From Runella defluvii (lineage in GTDB: Bacteria; Bacteroidota; Bacteroidia; Cytophagales; Spirosomataceae), in contig NZ_JACIBY010000003.1 of NCBI RefSeq assembly GCF_014195535.1, positions 438,440 through 502,439 on the forward strand: DNA of 64,000 bases, given 5' to 3'. The notes beneath the pieces are model-generated. The model was not told where the DNA came from. It saw only the letters and a program-made list of their open reading frames with translations, and did no database searches. This document shows positions 31,421 through 54,491 of the stretch, one piece after another. Positions within the stretch are counted from its first letter, which is position 1. Every line of letters starts with the position of its first letter. A program made the position numbers and the translations under genes.

Positions 31421-31493
31421 GCCTCCATAGCTCAGCTGATAGAGCAACTGACTTGTAATCAGTAGGTCGCTGGTTTGATCCCGGCTGGGGGCT
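31421..31493 (+). tRNA. tRNA-Thr (anticodon UGU), copy 1
   Basis: A complete 73-nt cloverleaf without encoded CCA. The acceptor arm pairs GCCTCCA with TGGGGGC (one G-U), the D stem is GCTC/GAGC, the anticodon stem is ACTGA/TCAGT around loop CTTGTAA (anticodon TGT), and the T stem is GCTGG/CCGGC around TTTGATC. It is identical to copies 2 and 3 and decodes ACA (and probably other ACN) threonine codons. A hairpin with A-A mismatch follows at about 31497-31521. Confidence 0.95.
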
Positions 31494-31551
31494 CTAAAGA
31501 GAATATCAACGAGATAATCTCTCTTGGGTAATACCAAATTTTTAATACAAT

Positions 31552-31624
31552 GCCTCCATAGCTCAGCTGATAGAGCAACTGACTTGTAATCAGTAGGTCG
31601 CTGGTTTGATCCCGGCTGGGGGCT
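31552..31624 (+). tRNA. tRNA-Thr (anticodon UGU), copy 2
   Basis: Identical over all 73 nt to copy 1. The 58-bp spacer before it carries a weak hairpin, and the trailer after it (to 31655) holds a related imperfect hairpin followed by T's. Confidence 0.95.
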
Positions 31625-31672
31625 CTTTAAAGATTTTCGACGAGACTATCTTTTTTCAATTTTTAAGGTAAT

Positions 31673-31745
31673 GCCTCCATAGCTCAGCTGATAGAGCAAC
31701 TGACTTGTAATCAGTAGGTCGCTGGTTTGATCCCGGCTGGGGGCT
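31673..31745 (+). tRNA. tRNA-Thr (anticodon UGU), copy 3
   Basis: Identical over all 73 nt to copies 1 and 2. It is the first copy followed by the GGCTACGAA hairpin terminator that recurs after copies 4-7, which suggests that this tRNA-plus-terminator cassette seeded the degenerate part of the array. Confidence 0.95.
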
Positions 31746-31748
31746 CGC

Positions 31749-31775
31749 AAAGGCTACGAATTTCGTAGCCTTTTT
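31749..31775 (+). terminator. Terminator of tRNA copy 3; recurs after copies 4-7
   Basis: The hairpin AAAGGCTACG-AATT-CGTAGCCTTT is followed by T's. Near-identical copies follow at about 31911-31937, 32074-32100, 32236-32262 and 32398-32425. The last has one arm change (GGCTACAAA), which weakens the stem. Confidence 0.8.
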
Positions 31776-31804
31776 CTTTTTAAAATTGATTCGATGAAAT
31801 AAAC

Positions 31805-31907
31805 GCCTCATAGCTCAACTGATAGAGCAACTGCCAGGAACGCCTGCCGCTTGTAATCAGTAGGTCGCTGCGGGGTCGCCCCTGCGATTTGATCCCGGCT
31901 GGGGGCT
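31805..31907 (+). pseudogene. Interrupted tRNA-Thr, copy 4
   Basis: A tRNA-Thr(UGU) copy carrying two insertions. CCAGGAACGCCTGCCG (31834-31849) replaces the last base of the 5' anticodon-stem strand, directly before loop CTTGTAA. CGGGGTCGCCCCTGCGA (31871-31887) replaces the last base of the 5' T-stem strand, directly before the T loop. One C of the acceptor 5' strand is also missing. Both inserts can fold as hairpins. It is unlikely to mature into a normal tRNA. Confidence 0.85.
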
Positions 31908-31966
31908 CGTAAAGGCTACGAATTTCGTAGCCTTTTTTGTTTTAAAATTGATTTGATGAAATAAAC

Positions 31967-32070
31967 GCCTCCACAGCTCAGCTGATAGAGCAACTGCCAG
32001 GAACGCCTGCCGCTTGTAATCAGTAGGTCGCTGCGGAGCCGCCCCTGCGATTTGATCCTGGCTGGGGGCT
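31967..32070 (+). pseudogene. Interrupted tRNA-Thr, copy 5
   Basis: It has the same two insertions at the same places (31997-32012; 32034-32050, the latter now CGGAGCCGCCCCTGCGA). The acceptor and D arm are otherwise close to the intact tRNA (CCACAG in place of CCATAG), and the T stem has CCTGGC in place of CCCGGC. Confidence 0.85.
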
Positions 32071-32129
32071 CGCAAAGGCTACGAACTTCGTAGCCTTTTT
32101 TGTTTTAAAATTGATTTGATGAAATAAAC

Positions 32130-32232
32130 GCCTCCAAGCTCAACTGATAGAGTAACTGCCAGGAACGCCTGCCGCTTGTAATCAGTAGGTCGCTGCGGAG
32201 TCGCCCCTGCGATTTGATCCTGGCTGGGGGCT
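32130..32232 (+). pseudogene. Interrupted tRNA-Thr, copy 6
   Basis: It has insertions at 32159-32174 and 32196-32212 (CGGAGTCGCCCCTGCGA). A base is lost at the acceptor/D junction (CCAAGC), the D stem is weakened (GAGT) and the T stem is altered (CCTGGC). These point to decay without selection for tRNA function. Confidence 0.85.
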
Positions 32233-32291
32233 CGCAAAGGCTACGAACTTCGTAGCCTTTTTTGTTTTAAAATTGATTTGAAGAAATAAAT

Positions 32292-32394
32292 GCCTCCAAG
32301 CTCAACTGATAGAGCAACTGTCAGGAACGCCTGCCGCTTGTAATCAGTAGGTCGCTGCGGGGTCGCCCCTGCGATTTGATCCCGGCTGGGGGCT
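32292..32394 (+). pseudogene. Interrupted tRNA-Thr, copy 7
   Basis: It has insertions at 32321-32336 (TCAGGAACGCCTGCCG, one change) and 32358-32374 (identical to that of copy 4). It shares the CCAAGC deletion of copy 6, while its T stem is intact. Confidence 0.85.
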
Positions 32395-32453
32395 CGCAAA
32401 GGCTACAAAATTCGTAGCCTTTTTTGTTTTAAAATTGATTTGATGAAATAAAC

Positions 32454-32484
32454 GCCTCTATAGCTCAACTGTTAGAGCAACTGA
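32454..32484 (+). pseudogene. Truncated tRNA-Thr, copy 8
   Basis: Only the 5' part survives (acceptor strand, D arm, 5' anticodon strand through AACTGA). Similarity ends exactly at the anticodon loop and runs into a T-rich stretch. This breakpoint is the same place where copies 4-7 carry their first insertion. Confidence 0.75.
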
Positions 32485-32542: not shown

Positions 32543-32773
32543 ATGAAACGTGTCGCTTTAGTTATCTTAATGTTTGCTGTAGCACTCACATTTGAAGGGT
32601 GTTGGTACCGTCAGTGCCCTATCAAAGGATGCAAAGTGAAATACAATCACAGTCATGGAAAGCGGGTGGTGCGCGGTAGAGGCACATTACCCAAACCTTA
32701 CCTGTTTGGAATGCCAAGAACAAAAGCTGAAAAGCGCAGCCAAGCCTCCGAAAAACGGGGTAAACGTCGCTAA
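32543..32773 (+). CDS. Small His/Lys-rich putative lipoprotein
   Basis: A 76-residue protein with signal peptide and possible lipobox (ALTFEGC, C20). The mature part starts WYRQCPIKGCKVKYNHSHG, a compact segment with two cysteines and two histidines that could bind metal, and ends in a basic tail (AEKRSQASEKRGKRR). Short proteins with a CPIKGC-then-H-x-H pattern occur in related Cytophagales. Function is unknown. It begins 59 bp after the truncated tRNA and lies just upstream of the gyrA promoter. Confidence 0.65.
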   Translation: MKRVALVILMFAVALTFEGCWYRQCPIKGCKVKYNHSHGKRVVRGRGTLPKPYLFGMPRTKAEKRSQASEKRGKRR

Positions 32774-54370: not shown

Positions 54371-54491
54371 GTGTTAGCTGTTATTGGTTAACGGTTACTC
54401 GTTATTGGTTACTGGTTAATAGATAACGGTTAACCGATAACAGGTAACGGATAACGGTTAACAGATAACAGATAACCAATAACGGCTAACG
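54371..54491. repeat. Palindromic low-complexity repeat of GTTAAC/ATAACGG units
   Basis: About 120 bp built from variants of GGTTAACGG, GTTATTGG and their complements GATAACGG and CAATAACGG. The left half (GTTATTGG, GGTTACT) is largely complementary to the right half (AGATAACC, CCAATAAC), so the whole can fold into one long imperfect hairpin. It lies between the PNP gene and a convergent receptor gene. Confidence 0.7.

Follow-up and report, generated by a model that had tools for sequence, protein, structure and literature searches.

The four interrupted tRNA-Thr(UGU) copies of the Runella array are very probably pseudogenes that arose when two hairpin elements inserted into a tRNA copy, which was then amplified in steps of 162 bp, and the element found in their T arm very probably belongs to a dispersed mobile family. 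The inserts are members of dispersed repeat families, which is beyond what can be seen from the window alone (the window being the whole stretch of 64,000 nucleotides that was analyzed, within contig C3 of an 8.0-Mb Runella genome, referred to below as the source genome or G000). The family of the T-arm element, roughly (N)CGGNYCGCCGNNGCGR, is present in Spirosomataceae and in some other families of the same order, which we take to be Cytophagales.

Organization of the tRNA-Thr array

The array begins with three intact tRNA-Thr(UGU) genes of identical sequence, continues with four copies that are each interrupted by two GC-rich inserts, and ends in a 5' stub (Table 1). Both ARAGORN and RF00005 agree with the original prediction on the three intact copies, and the two inserts of 16 and 17 nt that it described in each of copies 4-7 can be read directly from the sequence. 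Insert 1 (16 nt) replaces base 31, for a net gain of 15 nt, and insert 2 (17 nt) replaces G53, for a net gain of 16 nt. The period of about 162 bp, with a terminator in each unit, was also well described: the repeats follow one another at 162-163 bp with 94% matches, and a nearly identical hairpin resembling an intrinsic terminator is present in each of units 3-7 (five found, against a shuffle mean of 1.5). Copy 8 is indeed truncated, but its end lies in the anticodon stem (ACTGA), slightly before the anticodon loop where it had been placed.

Table 1. Features of the tRNA-Thr array, in positions of the window.
Feature	Position	Strand	Basis
Intact tRNA-Thr(UGU), copy 1	31421..31494	+	ARAGORN; RF00005, 63.3 bits
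Intact tRNA-Thr(UGU), copy 2	31552..31625	+	ARAGORN; RF00005, 63.3 bits
Intact tRNA-Thr(UGU), copy 3	31673..31746	+	ARAGORN; RF00005, 63.3 bits
Terminator-like hairpin after copy 3	31749..31773	+	Sequence nearly identical to hairpins of copies 4-7
Probable interrupted tRNA-Thr pseudogene, copy 4	31805..31908	+	Sequence; not reported by ARAGORN or RF00005
Insert 1 of copy 4 (candidate second mini-palindrome class, anticodon arm)	31834..31849	+	
Insert 2 of copy 4 (CGGGGYCGCCCNNGCGR element, T arm)	31871..31887	+	
Terminator-like hairpin of copy 4	31911..31935	+	
Probable interrupted tRNA-Thr pseudogene, copy 5	31967..32071	+	
Insert 1 of copy 5	31997..32012	+	
Insert 2 of copy 5	32034..32050	+	
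Terminator-like hairpin of copy 5	32074..32098	+	
Probable interrupted tRNA-Thr pseudogene, copy 6	32130..32233	+	
Insert 1 of copy 6	32159..32174	+	
Insert 2 of copy 6	32196..32212	+	
Terminator-like hairpin of copy 6	32236..32260	+	
Probable interrupted tRNA-Thr pseudogene, copy 7	32292..32395	+	
Insert 1 of copy 7	32321..32336	+	
Insert 2 of copy 7	32358..32374	+	
Terminator-like hairpin of copy 7	32398..32422	+	
Copy 8, tRNA-Thr reduced to its 5' part, stopping in the anticodon stem	32454..~32484	+	

Downstream of the array, in the window and in most relatives examined, is a coding sequence that we take to be gyrA-like. Between the two, at 32543-32773, a short ORF encodes a small protein that contains cysteine and is probably lipoprotein-like; most relatives examined have a similar ORF following their tRNA-Thr. 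Elsewhere in the window, short tandem repeats with the units GGTTAAC and GATAAC occupy 54380-54491.

Copies 4-7 as probable tRNA pseudogenes

From their sequence, copies 4-7 are best read as tRNA-Thr pseudogenes and not as a new RNA family. ARAGORN reported no tRNA at these copies, and a covariance search with RF00005 up to E=1, which is the Infernal check that the original prediction had proposed, found the three intact copies and gave no match at copies 4-7. Compared with the consensus of the four copies, the tRNA part differs in 12 of 292 cells (4.1%), the terminator and spacer in 5 of 228 (2.2%), insert 1 in 1 of 64, and insert 2 in 3 of 68; this comparison of regions, over four copies only, gave no sign of purifying selection on the tRNA part. 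Copies 4, 6, and 7 have each lost one base within the first eight positions.

A DNA search of 13 Runella genomes found interrupted copies in the source genome (four), G002 (Runella limosa) and G005 (two each), and G001 and G008 (one each). Full-length copies are present in both G002 and G005; one of the copies in G002, the first in its array (an array that contains a run of N), has a deletion in insert 2. The copy in G001 is decayed, and that in G008 is cut by a contig end and lies at a different locus, upstream of a gene that we take to be electron-transfer-flavoprotein-like. In the remaining 8 of the 13 genomes all copies found are intact, though two of these genomes (G009 and G010) have contig ends at the locus. 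An assembly error, which the original prediction named as a possible refutation, is unlikely because G001, G002, and G005 carry the interrupted form at the same place as the source genome.

Of the two readings that the original prediction offered, amplified tRNA-pseudogene DNA is the one supported, by a tRNA part no less variable than the spacer, by the lost bases, and by the 8 of 13 Runella genomes in which no interrupted copy was found. Its other reading, a separate structured RNA family (tRNA-like with extra hairpins, serving as a decoy or regulator), could draw on the persistence of interrupted copies at one locus in four genomes (G000, G001, G002, and G005), the terminator-like hairpins that copies 4-7 retain, and the tandem groups of interrupted copies in other genera (G112, G120, G092, and G440). 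We nevertheless consider it very unlikely, given that variation in the tRNA part is as high as in the spacer, that the 5' half is missing from many copies elsewhere, and that the same inserts are also found away from RNA genes, within ORFs and between genes. For seven interrupted copies, the folding z-scores ranged from -0.14 to -2.11, which is a weak test as the intact tRNA itself reached just -1.62, and no sigma-70-like promoter was found in the array by a scan that does not cover Bacteroidota promoters. A structured RNA thus found no support from folding, from low-threshold Rfam searches, or from variation by region, and sub-threshold Rfam matches to other families were dismissed as chance.

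Dispersal of the T-arm element

In Runella, the T-arm insert has the form CGGGGYCGCCCNNGCGR. This pattern is present in all 13 Runella genomes with 1 to 108 copies, and the reversed-pattern control gave 0 in each; the source genome contains 14 copies, two of which are in the array, and G009 contains 108. Only three of the 30 distinct CGGGGYCGCCCNNGCGR flanks examined are tRNA-Thr copies. The element was found in intergenic palindromes, in other intergenic DNA, in transposase-family ORFs, and in tRNA T arms, with L287-L291 (from matches of model R3, described below) as examples of palindromes that carry it outside tRNAs. A REP-like palindrome with TTGTTGGTGTTATCACCAACAA is also present in Runella (L290, L291, L292, L307, and L319), and some of its copies carry the element.

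Across 390 genomes of the order, a broader pattern was far above its control in many Spirosomataceae genera and, outside this family, in a few genomes. High counts include 69 vs. 3 in the control (G126), 107 vs. 2 (G124), and 111 vs. 0 (G197), and, in other families, 86 vs. 0 (G348), 77 vs. 4 (G237), and 27 vs. 0 (G267); the source genome has 20 vs. 3. Elsewhere the pattern is low or absent, e.g., 0 in the seven genus g2 genomes listed, and matches in genus g47 were set aside as chance, being roughly at or below the control. In a class survey of 395 genomes, a narrower pattern that is biased to the non-Runella form matched 14 genomes, five of them in Spirosomataceae with 1-39 copies, and showed no enrichment outside the order (nine genomes, with one or two copies each). 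Both the models and the patterns of these surveys derive from the inserts and are biased toward them. A search of viral contigs found nothing.

Ten open pieces beside inserts were chosen, of which eight had a Pfam match (integrase core, DDE_3, PDDEXK_2, and one IS110-type below the curated cut-off) and two had none; as these are chosen loci, the counts give no measure of transposase enrichment. Two integrase-core ORFs from two species (L351 in G001 and L354 in G009) have the element at apparently the same CTTG^GTCTG site. G009 also contains stretches of about 1 kb (L345 and L343) with at least four related elements in both orientations, L345 including an IS110-type piece.

Insert 1, a candidate second class of element

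Insert 1 is represented by the 15-mer CAGGAACGCCTGCCG. We treat it as a candidate second and rarer class of such dispersed elements, supported by less evidence than the T-arm element. Outside the array, exact CAGGAACGCCTGCCG occurs in 12 copies in 6 of the 13 Runella genomes (four in G009, three in G001, two in G010, and one each in G003, G006, and G008). When one mismatch was allowed, the 13 genomes gave 57 matches vs. 6 for the reversed control, and 8 of the 57 are exact copies in tRNA arrays. At L410 and L419 it lies in the context CCA^CAG, and in the R. limosa tRNA copy the insert 1 site is likewise A^C. L410 places it in one arm of a long palindrome, the opposite arm of which is without it. 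Other exact matches (L413, L416, L417, L418, and L422) are in repetitive, possibly coding sequence, and their origin is less clear.

These settings also bear on whether the inserts could be excision scars of integrative elements (phage or ICE) that use tRNA 3' ends as attachment sites. Many interrupted copies are tRNA 3' fragments with a terminator-like tail, and such fragments are a usual result of this kind of integration in the portion of the account that we draw on (PMC9897764). However, the same inserts are found far from tRNA genes between unrelated flanks, in one arm of a palindrome, and in transposase-family ORFs, which makes an origin as excision scars highly improbable; insertion of dispersed hairpin elements remains the preferred reading.

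Interrupted tRNAs in other genera

A model of the T arm with its insert (R2) was searched against 222 Spirosomataceae genomes at E up to 0.01. It matched in 108 of them, mostly intact tRNAs without an insert, and full-length matches with the insert were found in genera beyond Runella; at the R2 loci, the inserts interrupt tRNA-Thr, tRNA-Met, and tRNA-Arg(UCU), and these copies often form tandem groups and often lack the 5' half. A further model (R3) was run over the order (390 genomes, E up to 0.05) and matched in 44 genomes from 12 of 129 genera; the weak end of its list includes chance matches (probably G249, for example). A match from another search, L192, was set aside as chance, the surrounding sequence being unlike tRNA. 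The interrupted species, assigned from intact neighbors, from ARAGORN, or from the anticodon-loop sequence, include Thr(UGU), Met(CAU), Arg(UCU), Arg(ACG), Pro(CGG), Pro(GGG), Asp(GUC), and probably Pro(UGG). Outside Runella, related elements interrupt copies of at least seven tRNA species, in most cases at the 52/53 junction; at L347 the element is in the T loop instead. The original prediction of an interrupted cassette with a single origin and later multiplication agrees with this array, but equivalent inserts are also present in other kinds of tRNA and in other genera.

A regular-expression search with filters, run on 41 selected sources, gave 29 distinct T-arm inserts, in which the 52/53 position is given by construction. 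The filter required four T-stem pairs, and copies with fewer pairs (e.g., G112), inserts below 70% GC, other insert ends, and duplicates were left out of the 29 rows. Some copies show inserts at further places: a tRNA-Pro copy in G208 (L402) has a second GC-rich insert near its 3' end, and tRNA-Thr copies in G452 (L261) have a D-arm insert besides that in the T arm. Inserts of other types are present in the 5' parts of tRNA-Met-like copies in G072 (L248; GCGTTT-type, in the D arm, repeated) and in G098 (L251; GC-rich).

Filled and empty sites at tRNA-Pro(CGG)

Among matches with E up to 0.001, tRNA-Pro(CGG) is intact in G125 and G126 (genus g10) and in G186 and G208 (genus g33), and is present only in interrupted form in G123 and G124 (g10) and in G194 and G216 (g33). 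In G186 and G208 the intact gene is followed by an interrupted copy. The sole difference between the gene of G124 and the intact gene of G125 is the 16-nt insert, and the gene of G123 has the insert and several further changes relative to the intact gene. Two other Pro-tRNA-like genes, probably other isoacceptors, are also present (81% identity in 7 of 8 genomes, and 80% in 8 of 8).

Six full-length interrupted copies in other genomes (L207, L265, L268, L269, L278, and L279) are still reported as tRNA by ARAGORN, so that a T-arm insert by itself is not enough for a tRNA to escape this program, and its silence on copies 4-7 does not hold in general. Together with the four genomes that have tRNA-Pro(CGG) only in interrupted form, these reports would be in keeping with inserts that are introns, either removed or tolerated, the sole interrupted tRNA-Pro(CGG) genes being functional. 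Yet the interrupted gene of G123 is altered at several more positions, the probable other isoacceptors are at hand, the same insert is present in copies without a 5' half, and inserts in ORFs cannot be tRNA introns, all of which renders this explanation extremely improbable. Read as an insertion into a gene, the Pro(CGG) case suggests a route by which dispensable tRNAs may be lost.

Downstream of tRNA-Pro(CGG) in L265, L268, and L269 (in G216, G123, and G124) is a short leader ORF with three consecutive tryptophan codons and a terminator-like hairpin, which resembles a trp attenuator. In L265 and L268, this hairpin is followed by the start of what is presumably an anthranilate-synthase-like ORF.

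Target site and internal pairing of the T-arm element

Of 77 distinct copies of the element (tRNA copies included), 70 are preceded by a purine and 57 have T directly after position 17. The preferred target is R^RT (purine^purine-T), and tRNA T arms offer such a site with their conserved G53-T54. Weaker biases in the flanks (37-41 of 77) are found at -8, -6, +23, and +25. The flanks diverge at the ends of the element in the 77 copies, and the net gain at the orthologous tRNA gene is 16 nt. At tRNA-Pro(CGG), comparison of G124 with G125 revealed no target-site duplication, where a one-base duplication would be possible since the site is GG.

The conserved positions of the 77-copy table are partly fixed by the search pattern. 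Positions 6 and 17 are C-G in 60 copies, T-A in 12, T-G in 2, and other combinations in 3; the Fisher p of 4e-11 for their covariation (C/T by G/A table) is too small, as inherited copies are not independent. Position 17 is A in 12 of the 29 T-arm rows (from nine genomes), compared with G53 in intact tRNAs, and position 6 in these 12 rows is T in 8, G in 3, and C in 1. Base 17 thus probably comes with the element, at the cost of one base of the target, although later base changes might also explain this pattern.

Two internal hairpins were compared on an alignment (A3) of 14 sequences. For positions 6-9 with 14-17, 94.6% of the cells are paired, and the covariation score was reached by 10 of 500 shuffles and by no slid version; for positions 1-4 with 9-12, 86.3% are paired, 33 of 500 shuffles reached the score, and the version slid by +2 scored higher (0.184 vs. 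0.110). Support is thus fair for the former hairpin alone, and may be inflated by relatedness among the sequences. An earlier covariation count that included the T stem was discarded, as it mostly reflects the differing tRNA stems. The rule that the element always lies one pair before a hairpin loop was also dropped, given copies that lie in the T loop at L347, inside ORFs, or between flanks that have no hairpin.

A possible mechanism of insertion and spread

We propose that a spare tRNA-Thr copy took up a 17-bp hairpin element (net gain of 16) in its T arm between bases 52 and 53, and that the same copy took up a hairpin element of 15-16 bp in its anticodon arm at base 31. The broken copy and its terminator would then have been multiplied in 162-bp steps by unequal crossing-over, a mode of growth that we infer from the constant period. 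The dispersal of the T-arm element, its site preference, and its presence or absence at an orthologous tRNA gene were observed directly, and the dispersal together with the presence/absence difference suggests that the element is mobile. It would insert at purine^purine-T without visible target duplication, and may move as single-stranded DNA folded into a short hairpin, which an enzyme supplied in trans would cut and join.

More tentatively, and with somewhat less than even confidence, we suggest that the hairpin of 15-17 bp is the whole mobile unit, which would be among the smallest in bacteria, and that the enzyme inserting it at R^RT recognizes the folded strand. The pairing of bases 6 and 17 at the right junction might then reflect how this site is chosen or made (as a guide-like pair or by hairpin fill-in), and more than one such class may be spreading in the order, repeatedly silencing tRNA copies and transposases.

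Comparison with known small elements

We found no description of these elements in the open-access literature, most subscription journals being outside the search. In the excerpts of PMC3733652, REPs are defined as sequences of 20-40 bp with an unpaired GTAG or CGTC motif at one end, and those of the CGTC type have no known dedicated transposase. The T-arm element resembles REPs in being a small dispersed bacterial palindrome, sometimes located in genes, with several kinds per genome, and differs from those described there in its length of 15-17 bp, its recurrence in tRNA T arms, and the lack of a RAYT (REP-associated tyrosine transposase) beside the copies examined. The hairpin might accordingly be thought a REP-type element moved by a RAYT, as it is a small dispersed palindrome without visible duplication, and as Y1-type transposases are present in all six Runella genomes searched (27 loci). 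We consider this unlikely: the element is shorter than a REP, neither GTAG nor CGTC is present in any of the 77 tabulated copies, and an element was found near only 1 of the 27 Y1_Tnp loci (six genomes, flanks to about 1.5 kb), and in that case it stands where the Y1 match ends.

The GC clusters of yeast mitochondria, such as GC42 and GC18, are likewise very short GC-rich palindromes that vary in presence and absence; they include an 18-nt form, and their mechanism is described as unsettled (excerpts of PMC4478555). Unlike our element, they are mitochondrial and, in the same excerpts, flanked by direct repeats of AG or ACT resembling target duplications. Such repeats were not seen at the ends of the element in the 77 copies or between G124 and G125, nor did the latter comparison reveal at tRNA-Pro(CGG) the target-site duplication looked for as a mark of MITEs.

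Rickettsia palindromic elements (RPE), RUP, and Correia elements are also small dispersed repeats that enter genes, with RUP and Correia inserting in transposase genes and RPE reported in RNA genes (in the sections of PMC2229807 used here). They are about 105-168 bp where a length is given in these sections, most repeats of this type having terminal inverted repeats and several having target duplications, whereas our element is far shorter. The palindromes of Volvox carteri organelles are short, are thought to be selfish, and include a stretch inside an rRNA-coding module (as described in part of PMC2670323); they reside in algal organelle DNA, and the likeness to them is one of description.

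The element was assigned to no known class because it has neither the tag nor the length of REPs, nor the duplication of MITEs and GC clusters. It resembles REPs and GC clusters and, to the extent that can be judged, works like all of these kinds, yet fits none of the classes. With its near-exact length, target preference, covariation at two positions, orthologous sites both with and without the element, and a copy number of 1 to 108 among Runella genomes, this family makes testable how very short palindromes spread, including GC clusters and the REPs without a transposase.
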